Positions 7,777 to 19,059 of a DNA stretch of 64,000 bases are shown here, one piece after another; position 1 is the first letter of the stretch, and each line of letters begins with the position of its first letter. A program made the position numbers and the translations under genes. A model generated the notes under the pieces. The model did no database searches and was not told the origin of the DNA. It saw only the letters and a program-made list of their open reading frames with translations. Source of the DNA: Pigmentiphaga kullae (GTDB lineage Bacteria > Pseudomonadota > Gammaproteobacteria > Burkholderiales > Burkholderiaceae_B); NCBI RefSeq assembly GCF_004216695.1, contig NZ_SGXC01000001.1, forward strand, positions 434,001 through 498,000, read 5' to 3'.

Positions 7777-7852
7777 GTCCGCGCCAGGCACCGCGCGCCG
7801 CCCGGGGCGGAGCTTGGTATTCTGGCGATTGGCCGGTCTACTGGAACTTGCA

Positions 7853-9499
7853 ATGGCTCGTATCGTCCCCGACGGTTGGCGGGAAATCAACGCCACCGGC
7901 GCCGCCCGCCGGGAAATCGAAACCCTGGCCACGCTCGAACGCGGCCTGCCCGATTCCTACACCGTCTACCACGCCGTCCACTGGACCAACGTCGAGCACG
8001 GCTTCTCGGTCTATGGCGACATCGACTTCGCCATCGTCAACGCCGCCGGCGACCTGCTGCTGATCGAGCAGGTCAGCGGGTTCCTGGAGGAAACCGCCGA
8101 CGGGCTCTGCAAGAAATACCCCAGCCACAGCACCAACGTGCCGATACAGATCGCCCGCCAGCTGGCGGTGCTGCGCGGCCGGCTGGCCCGGCGCCCGCAC
8201 CTGGACGCCATCCGCGTCGAATACCTGCTGTACTGCCCGGACTACTCGGTGCGCCACCCGGAAACCGCCGGGCTGTCGTCCGAACGCATCGTCGATGCCG
8301 CCGAACGCGACCGCCTGTGCGCGGTCATCCAGCTCGCGCTGCCGCAGGCGCCCGCCACCCAGGCCGCGCCGGCCGTGCGCCGCTTCCTGGACGACATCAT
8401 CCAGCTCGAACCCGACGCCAACGCCCTGGTGGGGCAGGCGCGGGCGCTGGTCACCCGCATTTCGGGCGGCCTGGCGCACTGGGCGCGGCGGTTGGAGTTC
8501 GAGCCGTTCCGGCTCAGGGTGATCGGCACCGCCGGTTCGGGCAAGACCCAGCTCGCCCACGCCGAATTCCGCGCCGCCATCGACGCCGGCCGCCGGCCGC
8601 TGTACGTTTGTTTCAACCGGCCGCTGGCGGACCACTTCAACGGCATCGCCCCCGAAGGCGGCCTGGCGTGCACCTTCCACACCCTGTGCGACAAGGTGCT
8701 GCACGCCGCCGGACAGCCGGTGGACTTCTCGGGCCCCGACGCCTTCACCACCCTGGTGGCGCGCGCCGCGCGCGAAGCCGTGCCCGAGCACCTGCGCTTC
8801 GACACCATCATCATCGACGAAGGCCAGGACTTCTCCGACGAATGGCGCGACCAGATCCTGCGCCACGCGCGCGAGCACGCGCGCATGGTCTGGCTGGAAG
8901 ACCCGATGCAGAACCTGTACGGCAAGCCGGCCGTGCACCTGCCGGACTGGGTCACGCTGCGCGCGCAAAGCAACTACCGCAGCCCGCGCAGCATCGTGAA
9001 GCTGCTGGACCGCCTGTTGCCCGACGACCAGCACATCGAGCCGCGCGGCCCCATCGCCGCCGGCGGGCTGGGCGTGCTGGTCTACGACAACGAGGCGGAA
9101 CTGCTGGCGCACACCAAGAAAGCCATCTCGCAGTGCCTGGCCGCCGGCTTCAAGCGCGCCGACATCGCGGTGGTCAGCTTCCGCGGCCGCGAAAGCTCGG
9201 CCGTGCTGGGCCAGACCCAGCTGGGCCCGCATGCCATGCGCACCTTCACGGGCCGCTACGACCTGTTCGGCAAGCCCGAATTCTCGGAAGGCGAGGTGCT
9301 GATGGAGTCGGTCTACCGCTTCAAGGGCCAGGCCGCGCCGGCCGTCGTCTTCACCGAGGTCGACTTCGACCACCTGGACGAACGGACGGCACGCAAGCTC
9401 TTCGTGGGCGCCACGCGCGCCATGCTGCGTCTGGAACTGGTGGTGTCGCGGCATGCGATGGAACATGGCCTGGGCGCGATACTCGAAAGCGCGTCCTAG
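7853..9499 (+). CDS. NERD-domain superfamily 1 (UvrD/Rep-like) helicase
   Basis: Protein of 548 aa from ATG 7853; 13 extra codons are possible from ATG 7814. Residues about 1-150 resemble a NERD nuclease-like domain: GDIDFAIVN, then LLLIEQVSG. The usual E-x-K signature reads E-Q-V here, so nuclease activity is doubtful. A compact SF1 helicase core follows: Walker A GTAGSGKT (225-232), Walker [10 protein letters not shown] (about 319-327), [20 protein letters not shown] and GATRA. It stands alone between dapF and a Bug operon. Proteins of this build act in DNA repair or defence; the function here is not known. Confidence 0.8.
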
Positions 9500-9521
9500 G
9501 CGCGGGACGGCCGCGCCGGCA

Positions 9522-10493
9522 TCAGTCCACCGTCGCGCCCGACTCCCGCACCACCGCGCCCAGCTTGGCGATCTCGCTGCGGATGAAGCGCCCGAACTCC
9601 TCCGGCGTATCGCCCACCGGCTGCATGACCTGGGCCAGCAGCCTGGCCTTGACCTCCTTGTCGCGCAGGGCAAGGGCGATCTTGCGGGACAAGATCTCGA
9701 CGATGGGCTGCGGTGTTTCCGCCGGCGCGACCAGCCCCAGCCAGCCGACGAACTCGTAGCCCGGCAGCGTTTCGGCCACGGTGGGAACATCCGGCATCGA
9801 TTCGAAACGCCTGGCGCTGGTAACGGCCAGGGCCCGCAGCTTGCCTGATTCCACATGCGGCATGACCACGGGAATGCTCTCGAAGTCGACGCCGACCTGG
9901 CCGGCCAGCAGGGCGGCCACGGCGGGGGCGCTGCCGCGATAGGGAACGTGCGTCATGCGGGTGCCCGCCAGGCTGTTGAACAGCTCGCCGGCGATGTGCA
10001 TGGAGGTGCCGTTGCCCGCCGAACCGCGGTTCACCTTGTCCGGATGCTGGCGGACATAGGCCAGGAACTCCGTCATGTTGGAAACCGGGACGGTGGCGGG
10101 ATTGATGGCCAGCACGAGCGGATAGGTGACGGCCAGGGAGATCGGCGTGAAGTCTTTCACCGCGTCGTAGCCGAGCTTGCGGTACAGCGTCGGGTTGATG
10201 CCGTGCGTGCTGACCGTGCCCATCAGCAGCGTATAGCCGTCGGGCTCGGCCCGCGCCACGGTTTCGGCGGCGATCACACCGCCACCTCCGCCGCGGTTCT
10301 CGACGATGAAGGGCACGCCCATGCTTTGCGACAGCTTGTCACCCAGCAGCCGCGCGACCAGGTCGGTGGGCCCGCCGGGCGCGGCGCCGACGACGATGCG
10401 CACGGGTTTGGAGGGATAGCCGTTCTGGGCCGCCGCCGGTCCGGCAAGCAGGGCGGCCGACATGAACACGATCAGGCGCGGCAGGGCATGCAT
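9522..10493 (-). CDS. Bug-family (TctC) periplasmic substrate-binding protein
   Basis: Protein of 323 aa. The signal peptide covers about residues 1-22 (AGPAAAQ), followed by NGYPSKPVRIVV. Landmarks are GAAPGGPTDLVAR, a glycine-rich variant ENRGGGGGVIAAET, EPDGYTLL and HVPYRGSAP. A strong GAGGAGA ribosome site precedes ATG 10493. It is the last gene of a six-gene leftward run starting at 14803, which carries a second Bug gene at its head. Two binding proteins in one operon suggest two related ligands, or a substrate and an intermediate. Confidence 0.9.
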   Translation of the reverse strand: MHALPRLIVFMSAALLAGPAAAQNGYPSKPVRIVVGAAPGGPTDLVARLLGDKLSQSMGVPFIVENRGGGGGVIAAETVARAEPDGYTLLMGTVSTHGINPTLYRKLGYDAVKDFTPISLAVTYPLVLAINPATVPVSNMTEFLAYVRQHPDKVNRGSAGNGTSMHIAGELFNSLAGTRMTHVPYRGSAPAVAALLAGQVGVDFESIPVVMPHVESGKLRALAVTSARRFESMPDVPTVAETLPGYEFVGWLGLVAPAETPQPIVEILSRKIALALRDKEVKARLLAQVMQPVGDTPEEFGRFIRSEIAKLGAVVRESGATVD

Positions 10494-10531
10494 GGGTGTC
10501 TCCTCGTTGTCGGAATGGCGGTGCCCGCTTC

Positions 10532-10828
10532 CTAGGGCGCGACCACGCGGCCGTGGGTGATGTGGCGGTTGAAGATCCACCCGTCGTAGCGCTTGCGCGT
10601 GTCGTTCAGCGCGGAATGCGCCAGGTGCCAGTCCAGCGCGGCCTGATCCTTCCATTCCTCGAACAGGAAGACCCGGTCGTCCATCGGTGCCGACGGCGTG
10701 ACGATCTTGAATTGCAGGCAGCCCGCCTCCTTGAGCGAATTGGCGGCGTGCGTCCGCATGACCGCCAGGAATTCCTCGCGGTGCTCGGGCTTGATGGAGA
10801 ACTCGACGATCAGCGATATGGCTTGCAT
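10532..10828 (-). CDS. ABM-fold monooxygenase-like protein (putative quinol monooxygenase family)
   Basis: Protein of 98 aa, normal for a single antibiotic-biosynthesis-monooxygenase domain. The pattern fits: an opening beta strand (ISLIVEFSIKPEHREEF), then CLQFKIV, FLFEEWKDQAALDWHLA and the end of the ferredoxin-like barrel. Such small dimers carry out cofactor-free oxygenation of quinols or act as isomerases. ATG 10828 follows GGAAAG. An upstream ATG at 10846 would overlap the previous gene. It lies fifth in the TetR-controlled leftward operon. The substrate is unknown, and a non-catalytic role cannot be excluded. Confidence 0.75.
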   Translation of the reverse strand: MQAISLIVEFSIKPEHREEFLAVMRTHAANSLKEAGCLQFKIVTPSAPMDDRVFLFEEWKDQAALDWHLAHSALNDTRKRYDGWIFNRHITHGRVVAP

Positions 10829-10842
10829 GGTGTCTTTCCGTT

Positions 10843-11661
10843 TCATGGGTTTGAAAGAAGGGTCCGGCAGCGATCGACGGCGATGCGTACCACTTCGTCC
10901 GGATCGCGCTCCCACCAATCGGTGGAGAAGATCTCGACTTCGTACGGGCCGGCGTAGCCGCTGCGCGCCAGGCAGGCCAGCAGCCCCGCCAGGTCGGCGG
11001 CGCCGTCGCCCATCATGGCGCGGTCGTTGACCGGATGGCGGGTGGGCACGCGCCAGTCGCACAGCTGCACGGTGGCGATGTGGGGCAGACAATGCGGCGC
11101 GAGGCTGTCGTACAGGTCGGGATCCCACCACGTGTGGAAGACGTCGAGCACGACGCCACAACCCGGGCCGGCCTCCTGGCACAGGCGCAGCGCCTGCGCC
11201 AGCGTGTTCACGCAGCCCCGCTCGGCCGCATGCATGGGGTGGAAGGGCTCGATGCCCAGCTTCACGCCCGCCTGGGCCGCCAGTGGCGCGGCCTCGCGCA
11301 GCAGGTCCCGCACTTCCATGCGCGCCCGCGCCAGGCCGGCCGCCGCGCCGCCCCCACAGACGAACACCACGGCCCCCGCGCCGATCTCGGCCGCCTCGTC
11401 GATGGCCTGGCGGCAATCGGCCAGCGCGGCGCCCGGCCCGCGTTCGCGCAGCAGCGCCAGGTCGCCCGCCTTGCACAGCGACGGCACCCAGGCATCCGCG
11501 TCCCGCAGCAGCCGGCGGGCCCGCGCCACACCGCATTCGGCCAGCTTGTCGCGCCACACACCCACGCCACGCACGCCGTGGCGCGCGTAGCCGGCAATCG
11601 CCTGTTCCAGCGACCAGGTGGGCGTGGTGATCTGGTTGATGGCCAGCCGCTCCCGCATCAT
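10843..11661 (-). CDS. Sugar phosphate isomerase/epimerase-family TIM-barrel protein
   Basis: Protein of 272 aa, typical for the AP-endonuclease-2-like xylose-isomerase fold. Candidate metal ligands are in LGIEPFHPM, VVLDVFHTWW, DWRVP and GPYEVEIFS. Two ATGs are adjacent (11661 and 11658) with GGGAGA upstream. It lies between an Asp/Glu racemase-like gene and an ABM gene in the same operon. Members isomerise or epimerise sugars, inositols or hydroxy-acids. In this locus a hydroxy-carboxylate is more likely than a sugar, by inference from the Bug neighbours. Confidence 0.78.
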   Translation of the reverse strand: MMRERLAINQITTPTWSLEQAIAGYARHGVRGVGVWRDKLAECGVARARRLLRDADAWVPSLCKAGDLALLRERGPGAALADCRQAIDEAAEIGAGAVVFVCGGGAAAGLARARMEVRDLLREAAPLAAQAGVKLGIEPFHPMHAAERGCVNTLAQALRLCQEAGPGCGVVLDVFHTWWDPDLYDSLAPHCLPHIATVQLCDWRVPTRHPVNDRAMMGDGAADLAGLLACLARSGYAGPYEVEIFSTDWWERDPDEVVRIAVDRCRTLLSNP

Positions 11662-11689
11662 GCGCGTCTCCCGCCGGTCCGGTGCGCCA

Positions 11690-12484
11690 TCACCGCGACC
11701 GCAGGGCGTCGATGTTGCGCACCTCGGCCACCTTGCGCACATATTCCTCGGGCGGAGCCTGGTACAGCAGCTTGCGGCTGACGTGCACGCCGGTCATCTC
11801 TTTCATGGCCACGACCATTTCCGTCGCCTTGACCAGCAGCCGGTAGCAGTCCAGCAGCGGCACGCCGTCGACCTCGAAGATGCCGCGCTGGGCCAGCAGC
11901 GTGGACGACGGCCCGGCGGGGATCACCACTTCGGCACCGCGCTCGATGGACTTGCGCGAGGCGGCCAGGATCTGCTCCACGCAATCGTCGCCGGCGCGGG
12001 TATCGGTGAACACGGCATCGAAGCCGCGGATATTCGAGAACTCGATGTACTCGACCGAGGCCAGCCGGTCGCGCAGCCCATAGCCGATGGGGATCTCGCG
12101 ATAGCGCGGCACCATCTTCTCGTTGGGCACCACCAGGCCGAAGCGCTCGCCCATGGTGCAGGCATGGAAGCAGCAGACCTCCATGAAGGACACCACGGGG
12201 ATGTCGAGGATCTCGCGCAGTTCGACCAGCGCGGGGTCCAGCGAGTTGGCCAGCACGAACGCGTCGTAGCCGCCCTGCTGGCGGATGGCCAGCGCGTTGT
12301 CGATGATCTCGCGCACATCGTAGTTCCAGAACAGGCGGAACTGGTCGCCCAGGGCGCCCTGCTGGGTGCCGCGCACTTCCACCCGGGTCCCCGGCAGCGC
12401 GGCGCCGTCGCACAGCGCCTGGGTGGCACGCAGGAAATTCGCCATGCCGGTCTCGGACGAGACGAGCTGATACCAGATACGCAT
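11690..12484 (-). CDS. Asp/Glu/hydantoin racemase-superfamily protein
   Basis: Protein of 264 aa. It opens RIWYQLVSSETGM and carries one candidate catalytic Cys in MEVCCFHACTMGERFG; a second region, VVIPAGPSSTL, lacks the usual Cys. The fold resembles Asp/Glu racemases and maleate isomerases, which use a Cys pair, so the loss of the second Cys raises doubt about racemisation. Its ATG overlaps the stop of the CapA-like gene as TAATG, implying translational coupling. It is the third gene of the TetR-controlled leftward operon. Confidence 0.7.
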   Translation of the reverse strand: MRIWYQLVSSETGMANFLRATQALCDGAALPGTRVEVRGTQQGALGDQFRLFWNYDVREIIDNALAIRQQGGYDAFVLANSLDPALVELREILDIPVVSFMEVCCFHACTMGERFGLVVPNEKMVPRYREIPIGYGLRDRLASVEYIEFSNIRGFDAVFTDTRAGDDCVEQILAASRKSIERGAEVVIPAGPSSTLLAQRGIFEVDGVPLLDCYRLLVKATEMVVAMKEMTGVHVSRKLLYQAPPEEYVRKVAEVRNIDALRSR

Positions 12485-13833
12485 TACAGCCTCCTTGGTT
12501 GGGCGGACACGGCAGCGCCGTGCCCATGCAAAAGGTGTTGCGCGGCCTCCAGCCGCAGGTCGGTTCCCAGTTCGCGGCTCAGGTCGCGCACCTTCTCGAG
12601 CAGTTGCAGGCCCTCGCCGTTGCGCGCCAGCCTGGGCAGGCCGTCGGGCCCTTCTCCCTCGGCCCACAAGGTGAGCGGCTGCATCGTGAACGCGGGCGGG
12701 CCGTCGCGCCGACAGGTCAGGCGGACGAACAAGGCTTCCCAGGCCGAGCGCTTGCGGTAGAAGCCGGCGTTCTCGCGCCGGGCGCGGTAGACGTCGGCCA
12801 GCGGTTCGTCGCGCATCGCGTAGGCTTCGAAGAAATCGGCGGGCTGCCTGGGAAACAGATAGGGCTGGAACACGAAGGCGCCGATGCCATGGAAAATGGG
12901 CCGGCCGCGATGCAACTGCACGCCCCGCACGCCGTGCGCGCCGTGGCCGATGACGGCATCGGCCCCCGCGTCGATGGCGCGGCGGGCCATCTCCACCGCG
13001 AAGTCCGGCGGCGCGTCGGGCCGGCTGTCGTATTCGTGCGTGTGCATGCTCAGCAGCACCCAGTCGGCGTCGCGGCGCGCCGCACGGACCGCCGCCTCGA
13101 TGTCGGCGGCATCGTCCGGCGCGGCCCAGGACTCCACGCCGAAATCCTCGCCCCTTACGAAGCGTGCGCCCAACAGCGACAGCGCCGGGCCGCGTTCGTC
13201 GTCGTAGGCGCGCGCCAGCGGATGTTCGCGATGCTTGCCCGCGGGCAGGCGTTCCAGGATGCGTTCGAGCGCCGCATAGGCCTCGGCATCGACGCGGTAG
13301 CGCGTGCCGAAGCGCAGCGGCGCGACGCCCGGCCGGCCCGGGGTGTCGTCGCGCGAGCGCCCCGCCCGCGCGTGATCGAGATGGCTGGACGAGACGGCCA
13401 GCACGGCCACGCGGCCGCCCGGCGTGTCGACCACGGCGGGGCGCAAGGCCTGCGCCAGATCGGGGCCGGTGCCGGCATGGGGAATACCCAGGTCGCCAAG
13501 CGCGGCCTCGGTCTGGCGCAGGCCGTCGGCACCGTAGTCGCCGGCATGATTGTTGGCCGTGGACGCCACGTTGACGCCCAGCCAGGCCACGTCTCCGGCC
13601 AGTTCCGCGGGCGCGCCCGCCCACGCGCCGGGCGCCTGGGCCGCGGCCGCCGTCGGACGGCTCAGCAACTGGACTTCGAGATTGGCGAAGCGCACGTCGC
13701 ACGCGCGCAGGGCCCGCACCGCCGCGGCGAAGCCCGGATCCGTCTCGCCACGCAGCGGCTTGCCGATGTAGAGGTCGCCCACGGCGCCTATCGTGACCGC
13801 CCGCGCCCCGGATGCCGGCTCGTTGGAAGACAT
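12484..13833 (-). CDS. CapA-family protein (metallophosphatase-like fold)
   Basis: Protein of 449 aa. The CapA motifs are GAVGDLYIG near residue 20, FANLEVQLL, VASTANNHAGDYG, SMHTHEYD and VIGHGAHGVRGVQL. CapA/PgsA proteins have a calcineurin-like fold. Known members serve poly-gamma-glutamate capsules, but many occur in catabolic operons with no assigned reaction. No capsule synthase gene is nearby and no N-terminal membrane anchor is seen, so the capsule role is unlikely here. It starts only 4 bases after the head Bug gene ends. An enzymatic role on the imported compound is an inference. Confidence 0.8.
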   Translation of the reverse strand: MSSNEPASGARAVTIGAVGDLYIGKPLRGETDPGFAAAVRALRACDVRFANLEVQLLSRPTAAAAQAPGAWAGAPAELAGDVAWLGVNVASTANNHAGDYGADGLRQTEAALGDLGIPHAGTGPDLAQALRPAVVDTPGGRVAVLAVSSSHLDHARAGRSRDDTPGRPGVAPLRFGTRYRVDAEAYAALERILERLPAGKHREHPLARAYDDERGPALSLLGARFVRGEDFGVESWAAPDDAADIEAAVRAARRDADWVLLSMHTHEYDSRPDAPPDFAVEMARRAIDAGADAVIGHGAHGVRGVQLHRGRPIFHGIGAFVFQPYLFPRQPADFFEAYAMRDEPLADVYRARRENAGFYRKRSAWEALFVRLTCRRDGPPAFTMQPLTLWAEGEGPDGLPRLARNGEGLQLLEKVRDLSRELGTDLRLEAAQHLLHGHGAAVSAQPRRL

Positions 13834-13837
13834 GACG

Positions 13838-14803
13838 TCACTCGGCCTGGATGTTGGCGGCCTTCACGACCTTGGCAACGCGCGCGCGCTCGCGGCCGAT
13901 GAAGTCGGCGAACTGCTGGCGCGTGCCGGGCGACGGCGTCGCGCCCAGGTCCACCAGCCGCTGCTTCACCGCCGCCTCGTCGACCACCTCGCGCAGTACC
14001 GCGTTCAGCTTGTCCAGCACCGCCGGCGGCGTGGACGCGGGCGCGGCCAGTCCGTACCACACCGATTCCTCGTAGCCGGGCACGCCCGACTCGGCCGCGG
14101 TCGGCACGTCGGGCAGCAGGTCCATGCGGCTGGCGCGCGCGATCGCCAGCGCGCGCAGCTTGCCGCCCTTGATGTGCGCCATGGATTCGACCGTGTTCAG
14201 CGGCATGAACGAGATGCGTCCGCCCAGCATGTCGGACAGCGCGGGCGCGGCGCCCTTATAGGGCACGTGCAGGACTTCGATGCCCGCCGCCTGCTTCAGC
14301 GACTCGCCCGCCAGGTGGGCCGAGCTGCCGATGCCCGGCGACGCGTAGGTCAGTTCCCCGGGCTTGGCGCGGGCCCGGGCCAGCAGATCGCCCAGCGTCT
14401 TGAACGGCGAGGCCGCCGGCACCGCCACCACCAGCGGCGCGGAGGCGATCATGCCCACCGGCGCGAAGTCGCGCTGGCCGTCGAACGGCAGGTCGGCGAA
14501 CAGGCTGTTGTTGGTGGCGATGGAATTGGCCACCAGCAGCAGGGTGTAGCCGTCGGCCGCCGCGCGCGCCACGGCCTGCATGCCGATGTTGGAACTGCCG
14601 CCGGGCTTGTTCTCGACGATGAAGGGCTGCCCCAGCTTCTCCGCCATGCGCTGCCCCACCAGCCGCGCGACCGCGTCGGTCGCGCCTCCCGGCGCATAGG
14701 GCACGACGATGGTGACCGGATGCGTCGGCCACGCCCCGGCCGCCGCGTGCGCGGATGCCGCCAGCGTCCAGGCGGCCAGGCCCGCCAGGAAATGTCGAAC
14801 CAT
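13838..14803 (-). CDS. Bug-family (TctC) periplasmic substrate-binding protein, head of TetR-linked operon
   Basis: Protein of 321 aa with a clear signal peptide (about residues 1-21, ASAHAAA). The landmarks PYAPGGATDAVAR, ENKPGGSSNIG, ADGYTLLL and HVPYKGAAP are intact. GGGAGACAAAC precedes ATG 14803. It is the first gene of the leftward run Bug, CapA-like, racemase-like, TIM-barrel, ABM, Bug. Upstream lie a TATAAT box and a near-perfect copy of the CAAACGTTTG palindrome, also found in front of the BKACE gene. The adjacent TetR probably represses it until the ligand or a metabolite appears. Confidence 0.92.
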   Translation of the reverse strand: MVRHFLAGLAAWTLAASAHAAAGAWPTHPVTIVVPYAPGGATDAVARLVGQRMAEKLGQPFIVENKPGGSSNIGMQAVARAAADGYTLLLVANSIATNNSLFADLPFDGQRDFAPVGMIASAPLVVAVPAASPFKTLGDLLARARAKPGELTYASPGIGSSAHLAGESLKQAAGIEVLHVPYKGAAPALSDMLGGRISFMPLNTVESMAHIKGGKLRALAIARASRMDLLPDVPTAAESGVPGYEESVWYGLAAPASTPPAVLDKLNAVLREVVDEAAVKQRLVDLGATPSPGTRQQFADFIGRERARVAKVVKAANIQAE

Positions 14804-14826
14804 GTTTGTCTCCCGCATTTATTAAA

Positions 14827-14836
14827 CCAACGTTTG
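14827..14836. promoter_or_regulatory. Candidate TetR operator upstream of Bug operon
   Basis: The sequence CCAACGTTTG matches the palindrome CAAACGTTTG at 9 of 10 positions. It lies about 15 bp downstream of a minus-strand TATAAT (14851-14856), so bound protein would block initiation. The partner site is at 15810-15819. Confidence 0.55.
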
Positions 14837-14850
14837 AATTATTAGTGGCG

Positions 14851-14856
14851 ATTATA
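14851..14856 (-). promoter_or_regulatory. Candidate -10 box of the leftward Bug operon
   Basis: This is a perfect TATAAT on the minus strand, 47 bases upstream of the Bug ATG at 14803. No good -35 match is seen, so strength may be low or activator-dependent. The 205-base gap up to the TetR gene otherwise shows only the operator. Confidence 0.45.
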
Positions 14857-15008
14857 GGCTGTCGTCGACCCCTCGCCACCGGGGTTAACCCTGGCATCGA
14901 TCGATCGAAAAGCATGCGCCCGCCACGGCGAACGCGCCACAAGGAGAGGTACGCCGGAGGCGCGGGGAAAGCGCGGGAAGGGAGACGGCGCGGGACCGCG
15001 CCGTGAGG

Positions 15009-15725
15009 CTAGTCGGCCAGCAGACCGGCCAGGAAGAAGCGCACCATCCGGTCGACCATGTCGTCGGGCCGGTGGTGGACGTGCGGCAGCGGCGCGGACG
15101 CGAAGGCCGCCGGGGGCCGTTCCATGCGTTCCCAGCCGCCCATCGCGTAGATGATGCCGCCCACCATCAGGTTGTAGCGCCAGATCACTTCCTCCAGCGG
15201 CAGCCTGGGCAGGAAGTGCTTGAGCGCCAGGATGAAGCGGCTGCGCACGGGTTCGTAGTAGGTCTGCAGGAATTCGTTCTCGCCCGGCATGGCGAAGGCG
15301 CGCGACAGGAACTGCATGACCACCAGCGCCGAGTTGCTGCTGCGGGCGTTGATCGCCGCGGTCAGCTTCATCGGTGGCTCGACGAAGGCCCGCACCACCG
15401 CTTCCAGCGTGGGAGCGCCGCTGGCCAGCGCCGTATCCAGCAGCGCCAGCCGTTCATCGTTCAGGGGCACGACGCGGCGCCGGAACATTTCCTCGAACAG
15501 CTGGGACTTGCCGCCGAAGTGGTAGGTGATGGCGGCCAGGTTGACCCCGGCCGCGTCGCTGATGGCGCGCACCGACAAGGCTTCGAACCCTTCCGCCGCG
15601 CAGATGCGCTCGGCCACGTCGAGGATGGTGGTGCGCGTTTCTTCTCCGGCCGCGTTCTGCGAGCCACGGGGCCGGACGCGCGTGGCGGGCGGGGCGGACA
15701 CGGCGGAAGCGGATTTGCGGGTCAT
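15009..15725 (-). CDS. TetR-family transcriptional regulator
   Basis: Protein of 238 aa. The N-terminal helix-turn-helix region (about residues 30-76: TRTTILDVAERICAAEGFEA, then VNLAAITYHFGGK) is typical, and the ligand domain follows. It lies between two operons read in opposite directions. Each has a copy of the same near-palindrome downstream of a TATAAT box (14827-14836 and 15810-15819). The simplest reading is a local repressor of both operons, and possibly of itself, since the second site is in its own upstream region. The ligand is unknown but is probably a CoA ester or an acid from the pathway. Confidence 0.9.
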   Translation of the reverse strand: MTRKSASAVSAPPATRVRPRGSQNAAGEETRTTILDVAERICAAEGFEALSVRAISDAAGVNLAAITYHFGGKSQLFEEMFRRRVVPLNDERLALLDTALASGAPTLEAVVRAFVEPPMKLTAAINARSSNSALVVMQFLSRAFAMPGENEFLQTYYEPVRSRFILALKHFLPRLPLEEVIWRYNLMVGGIIYAMGGWERMERPPAAFASAPLPHVHHRPDDMVDRMVRFFLAGLLAD

Positions 15726-15774
15726 GGATGGAAGGCCGTAACGGAGAACGAGTCTGGATTGTACGTCGTAAGCG

Positions 15775-15804
15775 TTGACCGTCTTATTTTGCCTCGCCTA
15801 TAAT
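15775..15804 (+). promoter_or_regulatory. Promoter of the BKACE-nitrilase-cupin operon
   Basis: TTGACC (15775-15780) and TATAAT (15799-15804) are separated by 18 bp, close to the sigma-70 consensus. Predicted transcription starts near 15811, inside the candidate TetR operator. Confidence 0.65.
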
Positions 15805-15809
15805 TTAAA

Positions 15810-15819
15810 CAAACGTATG
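15810..15819. promoter_or_regulatory. Candidate TetR operator at the BKACE promoter
   Basis: CAAACGTATG matches CAAACGTTTG at 9 of 10 positions and overlaps the predicted transcription start. The flanks are also similar to the first site: both read AAAC, then AACGT, then an AT-rich run. Confidence 0.6.
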
Positions 15820-15836
15820 TATTTATGGAGAAGACA

Positions 15837-16715
15837 GTGCCTACCCCCATCCTGACCTGCGCCATCACGGGCGGGGACGACACGGCCGGGCGATTCCCGG
15901 CCGTCCCGGTCACGCCACGCCAGATCGCGGAATCGGCCATCGAAGCCTGCCGCGCGGGCGCCGCCATCGCCCATATCCACGTGCGCGACCCGGCCACCGG
16001 CAAGCCGTCGCTGGACCGCGCGCTGTACCGGGAAGTGGTGGAGCGCGTGCGCGACAGCGTCTCGCCCGTCATCCTGAACCTGACCACCGGCGCCGGCGCG
16101 CGCTTCCTGCCCGATGCGTCCGCGCCGAACACCGCGGCGGCGGGCTCCAACCTGCGCCCGCCGGCCGAGCGCTGCGCCCACATCCTGGAACTGCGGCCGG
16201 AGATCTGCACGCTGGACATGGGGTCGCTGAACTTCGGCAAAGGGGCGCTGATCAACGTGCCCGACCACATCGAGGCCATCGCCGCCGTGATCCGCGAGGC
16301 CGGCTCCAAAACCGAACTGGAGATCTTCGACACCGGCCACATCGCGCTGGCGCGGCATCTGATCGAGCGCGGCGTGATCGAGCCCGAACCGCTGTGGCAA
16401 CTGGTGCTGGGCGTGCCGTGGGGAGCACCCGCCAACAGCGAGACCATGATGCACCTGCGCGGCCAGTTGCCGGCGGGCGCGCGTTGGGCGGCGTTCGGCA
16501 TCGGCCGCCAGGAATTCCCCATGCTGGCCCAGGCCGCGCTGCTGGGCGGCCACGTGCGCGTGGGCCTGGAGGACAACCTGTACCTGTCGCAAGGCGTGCA
16601 GGCCCGCAGCAACGCGGAACTGGTCGGGCGCGCGGTGGAGATTCTGCATGCGCTCGACATGGAACCCGCCACGCCCGACCAGGCGCGGCGCATGATCGGA
16701 CTGCCGCCGCGATGA
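15837..16715 (+). CDS. BKACE-family beta-keto acid cleavage enzyme (DUF849)
   Basis: Protein of 292 aa. BKACE enzymes condense a beta-keto acid with acetyl-CoA and release acetoacetate plus a new CoA ester, using a metal ion. Landmarks are ILTCAITGG at the start, AAIAHIHVRDP (two metal-ligand His), VILNLTTGAG, LDMGSLNFG and LVGRAVEIL at the end. GTG 15837 is preferred: it has GGAGA at the right distance, whereas ATG 15825 would place its ribosome site in the operator. The 3' end overlaps the nitrilase start as ATGA. The natural beta-keto acid cannot be deduced from sequence alone. Confidence 0.88.
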   Translation: MPTPILTCAITGGDDTAGRFPAVPVTPRQIAESAIEACRAGAAIAHIHVRDPATGKPSLDRALYREVVERVRDSVSPVILNLTTGAGARFLPDASAPNTAAAGSNLRPPAERCAHILELRPEICTLDMGSLNFGKGALINVPDHIEAIAAVIREAGSKTELEIFDTGHIALARHLIERGVIEPEPLWQLVLGVPWGAPANSETMMHLRGQLPAGARWAAFGIGRQEFPMLAQAALLGGHVRVGLEDNLYLSQGVQARSNAELVGRAVEILHALDMEPATPDQARRMIGLPPR

Positions 16716-17593
16716 CCCCGGAAGAACCATTGCGCATCGCGCTGGCGCAGCTGCGGCCGGGCCCGGACCTGGACCGCAACCTGGACAAACTGGCGGCCTT
16801 GGCCGTGCAGGCGCGCCGCCAGGGCGCGCAGTGGCTGCTGCTGCCCGAGTACGCCGCCATGCTGCACGGCAGCCGGCAGGCCATGCGAGCCGCGGCCGAC
16901 CGCGCCGGCGACGTCGAAGCCGCCGTGCGCGGCCTCGCGCGGGACCTGGGCATGTGGGTGCTGCTGGGCTCGCTGGTGACGCCCGACGGACCGCGCCGCA
17001 TGTTCAACCGCAGCCTGCTGTTCGACGCCGACGGCCGCGTGGCCGCCCGCTACGACAAGCTTCACCTGTTCGACGCCACGCTGCCCGACGGCCGGACGAT
17101 ACGCGAATCGTCCGCCTATACCGCGGGCGACGAAGCCGTCGCGGTCGATACCCCCTGGGGGCGCGTGGGACTTTCCATCTGCTACGACCTGCGCTTTCCC
17201 GGGCTGTATCGCGCGCTGGCACTGGCCGGCGCGCAGATCCTGGTGGTCCCCGCCGCCTTCGCCCGCGCCACCGGCGCCGCCCACTGGCATGCGTTGCTGC
17301 GCGCCCGCGCCATCGAGAACGGCGCCTTCGTGCTGGCACCCGCCACCTGCGGCGACAGCCCCGGCGGCCGGGCCAGCTACGGCCACAGCCTGGCGCTGGA
17401 CCCCTGGGGCGACACGCTGGGCGAACTGGGCGACGAGCCCGGCTGCCTGGTCGTTCCGCTGGACCTGGCCGCCGTGGCCCGGGTCCGCGCGGAGCTGCCC
17501 GGCCTGTCCCACGAACGCACGTTCAGCGTGCGGCTGGCCGGCCCTTCCCTACTTGTTCCCTCCGACGGAATGCCTCATGACACAACCGCATGA
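16712..17593 (+). CDS. Nitrilase-superfamily carbon-nitrogen hydrolase (omega-amidase-like)
   Basis: Protein of 293 aa. The E-K-C triad is visible as E46 in LLLPEYAA, K116 in YDKLHLFD and C157 in ICYDLRFP. The motifs and length resemble the Nit/omega-amidase branch more than true nitrilases, so an amide is the likelier substrate. It is translationally coupled to BKACE (ATGA overlap) and overlaps the cupin gene by 17 bases. In the pathway it could remove an amide nitrogen from the compound before or after cleavage, by inference. No signal peptide is seen, so it is cytoplasmic. Confidence 0.88.
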   Translation: MTPEEPLRIALAQLRPGPDLDRNLDKLAALAVQARRQGAQWLLLPEYAAMLHGSRQAMRAAADRAGDVEAAVRGLARDLGMWVLLGSLVTPDGPRRMFNRSLLFDADGRVAARYDKLHLFDATLPDGRTIRESSAYTAGDEAVAVDTPWGRVGLSICYDLRFPGLYRALALAGAQILVVPAAFARATGAAHWHALLRARAIENGAFVLAPATCGDSPGGRASYGHSLALDPWGDTLGELGDEPGCLVVPLDLAAVARVRAELPGLSHERTFSVRLAGPSLLVPSDGMPHDTTA

Positions 17594-17978
17594 ACAGCGC
17601 TCGCCCGCCAGGACGAGCCAGCCCTCGAACCTTCGCTCGCGCTACGTCGACGCGGCCGCCATGGCCTGGCATCCGACCGACTTCCCCGGCATAGACATGA
17701 AGATCCTTTACGCCGACGCCGACAGCGGCATGTCGACCATCCTGTTCCGGATGGCGCCCGGCTCGGTCGTGCCCCTGCACGAACACACGGCGCTGGAGCA
17801 GACCTACATCCTGTCCGGACGCCTGGTGGACGACGAGGGCGAGGTCGGCCCGGGGGGATTCGTCTGGCGGCCGGGCGGCAACATCCACATCGCCCGCGCA
17901 CCGGAAGGCGCGACTTTCCTGTCGGTCTTCATGAAGCCCAACCGCTTCTTCGGCGGGGCGAAGTTCTTCACCGACTGA
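17577..17978 (+). CDS. Small cupin-domain protein
   Basis: Protein of 133 aa with a single cupin barrel. Cupin motif 1 appears as VVPLHEHTALEQTYILSGR, giving the HxH-x-E ligands, and motif 2 as PGGFVWRPGGNIH. The metal site is therefore likely intact. Such proteins (ChrR or acetylacetone-cleaving-like) can be dioxygenases, isomerases or sensors. It overlaps the 3' end of the nitrilase gene and closes the BKACE operon. The specific reaction is unknown. Confidence 0.82.
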   Translation: MTQPHEQRSPARTSQPSNLRSRYVDAAAMAWHPTDFPGIDMKILYADADSGMSTILFRMAPGSVVPLHEHTALEQTYILSGRLVDDEGEVGPGGFVWRPGGNIHIARAPEGATFLSVFMKPNRFFGGAKFFTD

Positions 17979-17986
17979 AGCGCGCG

Positions 17987-18832
17987 TCATGCCGCGGGCG
18001 GGGTCTCGCCGCGCGGCGCCTTGTAGCGGTTATAGCCCCACAGGTACTGCTCGGGACAACGCCGGATCATGGCCTCCATGCCGGCGTTGACCCAGGCGGC
18101 CTGGTCCTCCGCGGTCTCGGGCACCGGGCCGGGCAGCCGCACGAAATGGACCTTCCAGCCCTGTGCGCCGGGCAGGCGCTCGCCCGCCGCCAGCACCACG
18201 GCGGCGCCCGTCTGCGCCGCCAGCCGGCCGGGCAGCACCATGCTGAACGCGGGCTTGCCGAAGAACGGCGCCCACACACCTTCGCCGTTGCCGGGCACCT
18301 GGTCCGGCAGGATGCCGATCGCCTCGCCGCGGCGCAGGGCCCGCACCAGTTGGCGCACCCCCTGCAGGTTGGCGGGCGCGGTATCCAGGTTCGGCCCGCG
18401 CCGGCCGCCTTCGACCAGTTGCGACACCCAGGCCTTGCGCGGCGGCCGGTAGAGCACCGTGATGGGGCCGCCCCGGTGCGCGTAGTAGCGCGCCGCGACT
18501 TCGAAGCAGCCCAGGTGCGGCGTCAGGAACAGAATGCCCTTGCCCTCGTCCAGCGCACCCTGCACGGCGTCCCAGTCGTCGGTGCGGCACTCGGCCAGCG
18601 CCCGGTCGGGCCGGAACCAGACGCGCGGGATCTCCAGCGCGCCCTCGCCCGCGGCGGCGGCCGAGCGGCGCGCGAAATCCTCGCCTTCATAGCCGCCCAG
18701 GGCGGCGTTGGCGCGCAGGCGCGCGGCATAGTCGGCGGAACCGCGATACACCAGCAGTCCCAGACAGCGCCCCAGGCGGTGCAGCCAGCCCAGCGGCAGC
18801 CGCGCGAGCAAACGATAGAAAGTCAGCAGCAT
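17987..18832 (-). CDS. lpxL: Lipid A biosynthesis acyltransferase (LpxL/HtrB family)
   Basis: Protein of 281 aa from ATG 18832. ATG 18898 would add 22 residues that look unlike the family start. The catalytic HX4E motif is H106-LGCF-E111, an N-terminal hydrophobic anchor is present (LLARLPLGWLHRL), and GILPDQVPGNGEGVW matches the family. It adds a secondary acyl chain to lipid A at the inner membrane. It is divergent from metK. I recall two lpxL copies beside dapF in Bordetella; only one is seen here, and it is separated from dapF by the accessory block at 7853-17978. Confidence 0.9.
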   Translation of the reverse strand: MLLTFYRLLARLPLGWLHRLGRCLGLLVYRGSADYAARLRANAALGGYEGEDFARRSAAAAGEGALEIPRVWFRPDRALAECRTDDWDAVQGALDEGKGILFLTPHLGCFEVAARYYAHRGGPITVLYRPPRKAWVSQLVEGGRRGPNLDTAPANLQGVRQLVRALRRGEAIGILPDQVPGNGEGVWAPFFGKPAFSMVLPGRLAAQTGAAVVLAAGERLPGAQGWKVHFVRLPGPVPETAEDQAAWVNAGMEAMIRRCPEQYLWGYNRYKAPRGETPPAA

Positions 18833-19059
18833 CGAACGATCCGAACCTCGAATGACAAGCCCCGCCGCCACGTTGCCGGCAAGGGGGGTGGGCTCCATCG
18901 GGATTTTCCCCTAAAATGGAAGAGATCGCCGAGTTAACAGACAACTTGCGGGGCGATCGCGGCGCCGGCCCGTCCGGTGCGCGCATAAATGCCGCTAAAG
19001 CGTCGCTGCTCGCCACAGGTCCAAGACCCAGCAACGTGCAACACGCCGCGGAACCGATA

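Follow-up and report, generated by a model that had tools for sequence, protein, structure and literature searches.

A two-armed TetR locus of Pigmentiphaga kullae that may encode an undescribed catabolic pathway with a BKACE enzyme and a nitrilase-superfamily amidase

The locus analyzed here lies at positions 9522-17978 of a 64,000-nucleotide stretch of Pigmentiphaga kullae DNA (contig NZ_SGXC01000001.1, positions 434,001 to 498,000; hereafter the window), in a genome of 6.2 Mb in five contigs. A gene for a TetR regulator (15009..15725, minus strand) is flanked by a leftward run of six genes and a rightward run of three. An earlier note on this DNA had described this two-armed arrangement, and the coordinates hold: in a frame check of the locus, every one of the ten open reading frames begins at the listed ATG and is free of internal stops. 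Distances within the runs range from -17 to 38 bases. The CapA-like gene overlaps its neighbor, here called gene 4, by 1 base, the BKACE gene overlaps the nitrilase gene by 4, and the nitrilase gene overlaps the cupin gene by 17; the remaining gaps measure 4-38 bases.

The rightward run opens with a member of the BKACE (DUF849) family (15825..16715, plus strand), which scores 328 bits against PF05853, where the cut-off is 24.8. Translation probably starts at GTG 15837 instead of ATG 15825, because GGAGAAG at 15827-15833 precedes the GTG and the ATG is missing from four of the six Pigmentiphaga copies (L034, L035, L036, and L038). By alignment, the protein keeps H50, H52, and E249 as zinc ligands and E166 as the base, in addition to Arg245 and Asp250. 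In Kce numbering the ligands are His46, His48, and Glu230, and the base is Glu143. The ligands were assigned by alignment with BsfD, from the available part of PMC12871164, and the base after E171 of BKACE15, from the available part of PMC11961710, placed by its offset to Tyr173. In family, zinc ligands, and base, the earlier identification as a BKACE is borne out; from canonical acetoacetate-forming BKACEs the protein departs at the catalytic Tyr (Tyr145 of Kce), where it has Phe168.

Phe occupies this position in all 29 tabulated homologues, the window protein included. The preprint PMC12871164, in its available part, says that all BKACEs carry the Tyr and ties the Phe of BsfD to its different chemistry; the 29 homologues conflict with the statement that the Tyr is universal. 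They include three carnitine-type loci (L102, L105, and L106) of the same Phe-type subfamily, with 50-55% identity to the window BKACE. At L102 the neighboring genes are an annotated L-carnitine dehydrogenase and a thioesterase, and the settings of L105 and L106 are similar. In carnitine-type settings, BKACE cleavage is expected. Because Phe is also present at these loci, it does not by itself decide for diketone chemistry, and Phe168 was rejected as proof of a BsfD-like reaction. The window enzyme may still be an acetoacetate former, and acetoacetate is its likely product as judged from its family.

The position of Kce Glu14 separates the homologues. Here the window protein has Asp18; its Arg93 aligns with Arg91 of BsfD. 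Asp is found in 12 of the 29 homologues (the nine orthologues described below, Caballeronia NK8, pAK76, and L101), and L, G, A, I, H, or T stands there in the remaining 17. In the fetched stretches, a nitrilase gene follows the BKACE gene at 11 of the 12 Asp loci and at 0 of the 17 others, four of which cover only 1.5 kb per side; near relatives are included among the 29. Glu14 of Kce contacts the substrate amino group. Because Asp18 takes the same place, an amine or amide on the BKACE substrate is plausible by analogy.

The second gene of this arm (16712..17593, plus strand; the gene ends at 17593) encodes a nitrilase-superfamily amidase (PF00795, CN_hydrolase, 190 bits) that is nearest to deaminated-glutathione amidase/Nit2 (PDB 1ems and 2w1v). 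Its CN_hydrolase domain keeps E46, K116, and C157, the Glu-Lys-Cys triad of the superfamily. Against the deaminated glutathione amidase model of NCBIfam it scores 220 bits, below the cut-off of 500, for a query short of its last three residues. The third gene (17577..17978, plus strand) encodes a Cupin_7 protein (PF12973, 71 bits), in which the metal-site residues H68, H70, E74, and H104 are kept in all seven aligned sequences. Its predicted model (pLDDT 85) matches many metal cupins about equally in Foldseek. The sequence match to Dke1 is weak (3bal, E 0.046), and the fold match (TMq 0.71) ranks 23rd of the 445 matches at E <= 0.001. No pointer to a substrate came from nitrilase neighborhoods in Rhodococcus pyridinivorans and Qingshengfaniella, or from cupin neighborhoods in Rhodococcus ruber and Variovorax.

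The leftward arm runs from Bug1 (13838..14803, minus strand) to Bug2 (9522..10493, minus strand), both of which are tripartite tricarboxylate receptors (TctC) by their PF03401 scores of 262 and 239 bits, respectively; Bug2 has a homologue in all nine genomes that carry the cluster. Bug receptors bind small carboxylates. No TctA permease gene is present in the cluster, and seven are present elsewhere in the genome. Between the receptors, on the same strand, lie genes for a small ABM-domain protein (10532..10828; PF03992, 58 bits) and a xylose-isomerase-like TIM barrel (10843..11661; PF01261, AP_endonuc_2, 121 bits), which matches PDB 7vpf, 3qc0, and 3ju2 at E ~1e-60.

The CapA-like protein (12484..13833, minus strand) belongs to the PGA_cap family (PF09587, 167 bits; 8gq9, E 1e-44) and is an MslH-like enzyme of metallophosphatase fold. 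The available part of PMC10406935 gives Glu44, Asn87, His259, and His261 as metal ligands of MslH and His88/Asp91 and His295/Asp11 as its dyads. All eight have counterparts in the CapA-like protein (D20, E53, N95, H96, D99, H264, H266, and H300) and are kept across nine orthologues, and the earlier label CapA-like has to be corrected accordingly. Its score against the NCBIfam equivalog for MslH, 194 bits, is below the cut-off of 700, and the protein is proposed only to work like an MslH-type epimerase. A capsule or poly-gamma-glutamate gene is disfavored by this active-site match and by the context of plasmid homologues (31-34% identity), four of which were viewed. One adjoins alanine racemase and D-aminoacylase genes, one adjoins an amidase and an ABC transporter, and one adjoins aspartate ammonia-lyase, M20 aminoacylase, and Xaa-Pro peptidase genes; the neighborhood of the fourth, in Roseomonas, is uninformative. 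No capsule genes occur among the ten cluster genes, the remainder of the genome not having been searched for them. A paralogue of 36% identity in the same genome (L084, G000:C3:446262-447575) is clustered with Bug, TauD-family, and M24/creatinase-like genes.

Gene 4 (11690..12484, minus strand) is a member of the Asp/Glu racemase superfamily (PF01177, Asp_Glu_race, 66 bits against a cut-off of 31), and its earlier label racemase-like needs correction at the active site. In a phmmer alignment, Asn80 and Ala190 stand at both catalytic Cys positions of the hydantoin racemase 3qvj (3qvk was also aligned); a MAFFT alignment concurs on the first site but puts the second at another position. The first site is Asn in all nine orthologues and in relatives of 33-39% identity, and Cys is found there in one (L089) of five relatives of 24-32%. 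The predicted model of the protein has a mean pLDDT of 62. Cys-free relatives (33-39%) adjoin a Bug gene at four (L073, L079, L080, and L081) of the nine loci viewed (L073-L081), gene calling being poor in L074 and L076-L078; such proteins may be a partner of Bug transport that has no name yet.

The TetR protein has the Pfam domains TetR_N and TetR_C_30, and its best NCBIfam match is PsrA. In the available part of PMC13104628, the PsrA box has the form AAAC-N4-GTTT and PsrA proteins bind long-chain fatty acids. Sites of the form AAAC-N2-4-GTTT were counted as candidate PsrA-type operators, and their significance was judged against 300 shuffles. One operator-like site (14824..14840) lies in the Bug1 promoter region and is perfect, with 0/300 shuffles as good. 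The other (15807..15823) has one mismatch and lies in the BKACE promoter, two bases past the TATAAT. Two sigma70-like sites were detected in the 8.7 kb of 9400-18100, where 0.7 were expected, and there is one for each arm: ACGACA-16-AATAAT at 14838..14865 on the minus strand (9/12 matches) and TTGACC-18-TATAAT at 15775..15804 on the plus strand (11/12). The operator-like motif overlaps or sits just downstream of each. The 17-base pattern AAACNAACGTNTGNATT has two matches in the 6.2 Mb genome, at 14824 and 15807, and zero when read backwards; a second pattern, ACGTTNGTTTAA, has the same two matches only, both patterns having been composed after the sites had been seen. Both sites match exactly in all six Pigmentiphaga copies. 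Perfect AAAC-N4-GTTT motifs were also found in both Bordetella-genus promoters (5/300 and 3/300 shuffles as good) and twice 5' of the Allopusillimonas BKACE gene (5/300). Because the same motif occurs twice in the genome, at the promoter of each arm, one PsrA-like repressor probably controls both arms as a single regulon, its binding being predicted.

Co-occurrence of the two arms was followed in 268 genomes of the family, every count including the own genome. BKACE matches at E <= 1e-80 are present in 14 of them, with a best identity of 63-100% in nine and of 52-57% in the other five. For gene 4, matches at E <= 1e-20 are present in 49, with a best identity of 78-100% in nine and all other matches at or below 39%. 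The close orthologues of these two genes, though they belong to different arms, are restricted to the same nine genomes: six of Pigmentiphaga (the own genome, G190, G194, G195, G196, and G197), two of the genus Bordetella (G096 and G102), and Allopusillimonas G076. Homologues of all ten genes are present in each of the nine, although the ABM protein shows only 42% identity in the Bordetella-genus genomes. Five more Pigmentiphaga members (G189, G191, G192, G193, and G198) have neither close orthologue. The nine genomes are related and are not nine independent events; they represent three genera and three arrangements. This recurrence exceeds chance, and the possibility that the set was a peculiarity of the one strain can be set aside.

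The gene order of the window is common to the Pigmentiphaga copies, and the two-armed layout is that of this genus. Both Bordetella-genus genomes have one run of BKACE, nitrilase, cupin, CapA-like, gene 4, ABM, TIM barrel, Bug1, and Bug2, with a divergent TetR gene. In Allopusillimonas, one run consists of TetR, Bug1, CapA-like, gene 4, TIM barrel, ABM, Bug2, and cupin, and the BKACE and nitrilase genes, preceded by a second TetR gene, are found at a distance of about 10 kb. The earlier suggestion that the arms are linked is strengthened, at the level of gene order and sequence, by the fused run and the shared motif. Identity to the window BKACE is 73% in Allopusillimonas and 63-64% in the Bordetella genus; for gene 4 the ranking is opposite (78% and 84-85%). 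Therefore, pieces of the cluster may have separate histories.

Searches outside the family covered samples of genomes, and the own genome is again part of each count. The CapA-like protein was found at E <= 1e-60 in 2 of 399 order-level genomes, and BKACE was found at E <= 1e-95 in 3 of 399 order-level genomes and at E <= 1e-98 in 4 of 398 phylum-level genomes. At the new BKACE loci from these searches (L086 and L125-L127), no nitrilase was detected by tblastn, L086 extending only 1.5 kb to each side. On plasmids, the right arm was found in other company. Sinorhizobium meliloti pAK76 has MmgE/PrpD, BKACE (60%), CN hydrolase (49%), and cupin (64%) genes in succession, with IclR, transhydrogenase, ABC transporter, SDR, and aldehyde dehydrogenase genes nearby. 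In Caballeronia sp. NK8 pNK81, BKACE (68%) and nitrilase (50%) genes lie between genes for an aldehyde dehydrogenase and a hydroxyisobutyrate-dehydrogenase-like protein, with MmgE/PrpD and IclR-like genes further out; no cupin was detected at this locus by tblastn. BKACE and nitrilase are the stable pair of this core module. The MmgE/PrpD-type genes near the pair on both plasmids (L090 and L091) hint at what chemistry may precede it in this variant.

We consider it moderately probable that the locus works as one catabolic regulon devoted to a single nitrogen-containing carboxylate. The protein families suggest the following reactions, order, and class of substrate. In each arm, the PsrA-like TetR protein would occupy an operator close to the start of transcription and would leave it when a carboxylate or acyl inducer is present. 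Bug1 and Bug2 would capture the substrate outside the membrane, and the permease would be supplied from elsewhere in the genome, because the TctA genes all lie outside the cluster. The MslH-like enzyme and the racemase-superfamily protein might set the stereochemistry of, or rearrange, the carbon adjoining the acid or amide. The TIM-barrel enzyme could then isomerize or dehydrate the compound to a beta-keto acid bearing an amide or amine, and the nitrilase-superfamily enzyme could free ammonia from the amide. BKACE would transfer the terminal two carbons of the beta-keto acid to acetyl-CoA, so that acetoacetate forms and a shortened acyl-CoA is left. The cupin may serve as a metal-dependent oxygenase or isomerase somewhere in the route.

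Several points weigh against this proposal. The main gap is that the cluster contains no enzyme that would obviously form the keto group by oxidation; at most of the other BKACE loci viewed, an SDR or other dehydrogenase gene is present. The operator-like site of the right arm is marginal by itself (18/300 shuffles as good), the best PsrA-type site of the Allopusillimonas Bug1 promoter has two mismatches and does not exceed chance (198/300), and the 90 bits of the TetR protein against the PsrA model are far below the cut-off of 300. L101, although it is of the Asp type, lacks a nitrilase gene, which weakens Asp18 as a strict nitrilase marker. Finally, BsfD, a Phe-type DUF849 enzyme, makes a 1,3-diketone and no acetoacetate according to the available part of PMC12871164, so acetoacetate formation is likely rather than certain. 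If the window BKACE resembled BsfD, it would acetylate and decarboxylate a beta-keto acid to a 1,3-diketone, which a Dke1-like cupin would cleave with oxygen. Phe168, a long loop following beta3 as in BsfD, and the Arg93 that corresponds to BsfD Arg91 fit such a reaction, as do the overlap of the cupin gene with the nitrilase gene and the weak likeness of the cupin to Dke1 in sequence and fold. However, a Phe that is shared by all tabulated homologues, including those of carnitine-type loci, is not predictive, the Dke1 fold match is one among hundreds of cupins, and the prior lengthening of the chain would be wasteful. We regard this reaction as very improbable. Its elaboration into a complete aerobic route, in which a polar amide or amine beta-keto acid prepared by the Cys-free racemase-fold protein and the MslH-type epimerase is condensed with acetyl-CoA and the diketone is split by the cupin, is credited slightly less.

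It is also conceivable that two adjacent catabolic units with different substrates, a Bug-CapA-isomerase route and a BKACE-nitrilase-cupin route, share one regulator. The right-hand trio on the S. meliloti plasmid and the BKACE-nitrilase pair of Caballeronia NK8 occur with no left arm nearby, and the Allopusillimonas pair stands behind its own TetR gene. Yet neither close BKACE nor gene-4 orthologues occur alone among the 268 family genomes, the arms are fused in the Bordetella genus, and the cupin gene belongs to the left-arm run in Allopusillimonas. This division of the locus appears unlikely. The regulator itself raises another thought, that the cluster degrades an acyl amide, such as an acyl-homoserine lactone or lipid amide, and that fatty-acyl groups are sensed. 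The TetR_C_30 domain, the PsrA match, the PsrA-type boxes, and the fatty-acid binding of PsrA proteins described in the available part of PMC13104628 would agree with this; the low score against the PsrA model would not, and Asp18 and Arg93 of the BKACE would suit a polar group better than a fatty one. Bug receptors, furthermore, take small carboxylates. Degradation of an acyl amide is held to be highly doubtful.

The single regulon for a nitrogen-containing carboxylate resembles known systems in part. In the carnitine-type operons and the deoxyribonate operon (available part of PMC6365646), BKACE likewise stands beside uptake genes, the deoxyribonate enzymes being likened by description and not by sequence. 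In these operons a dehydrogenase makes the keto acid, often with a thioesterase; the window cluster has neither and instead has the nitrilase, cupin, CapA-like, racemase-like, and TIM-barrel proteins. The pAK76 and pNK81 loci share the gene order of the window, the Asp at Kce Glu14, and 60-68% BKACE identity, with IclR, MmgE/PrpD, SDR, aldehyde dehydrogenase, and ABC transporter genes in place of TetR, Bug, and the left-arm enzymes. BsfD (9ZSC; flavophos cluster) shares the Phe, the loop, and the aligned Arg, but the available part of PMC12871164 places it in a biosynthetic phosphonate cluster, with Gln at the Glu14 position and a 1,3-diketone product. MslH acts on a lasso peptide, and no peptide biosynthesis genes are found among the ten. 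PsrA of Pseudomonas has the same C-terminal domain family, and its AAAC-N4-GTTT sites near the transcription start resemble the operator-like sites of the window; the TetR protein of the window, by contrast, is proposed to act locally on one catabolic cluster.

The cluster is real, conserved, and apparently undescribed, BKACE catabolic operons as a kind being already known. The earlier note knew of no named pathway with this set, and no description of it was found in a literature search that judged mostly titles and abstract starts and left many journals outside. BKACE enzymes end several pathways, many of them unknown, and the tight co-occurrence, candidate switch, and nitrilase-linked Asp18 make this locus a good starting point for reaching a new one. 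The locus further places two groups that are poorly understood, the MslH-like "CapA" proteins and the Cys-free racemase-fold proteins, in a catabolic context. Uncharacterized catabolic clusters are common, and the surprise is moderate.

The interval 9500-17986, bounded by 7814-9499 (read as helicase-like) and 17987-18898 (read as acyltransferase-like), is variable within the genus. In L121-L124 it comprises about 760 bases in G189, other genes in G192, and, in G191 and G198, a Bug gene accompanied by LysR-like and CaiB-like genes, labels read from sequence starts; in G193 it spans about 9 kb. The own genome has six BKACE genes. A second BKACE locus of the genus (L042-L044, L047, and L048; G000:C2:746864 in the own genome) contains SDR-like, dehydrogenase-like, and Bug genes, and a similar set without Bug is annotated on a Skermanella plasmid.

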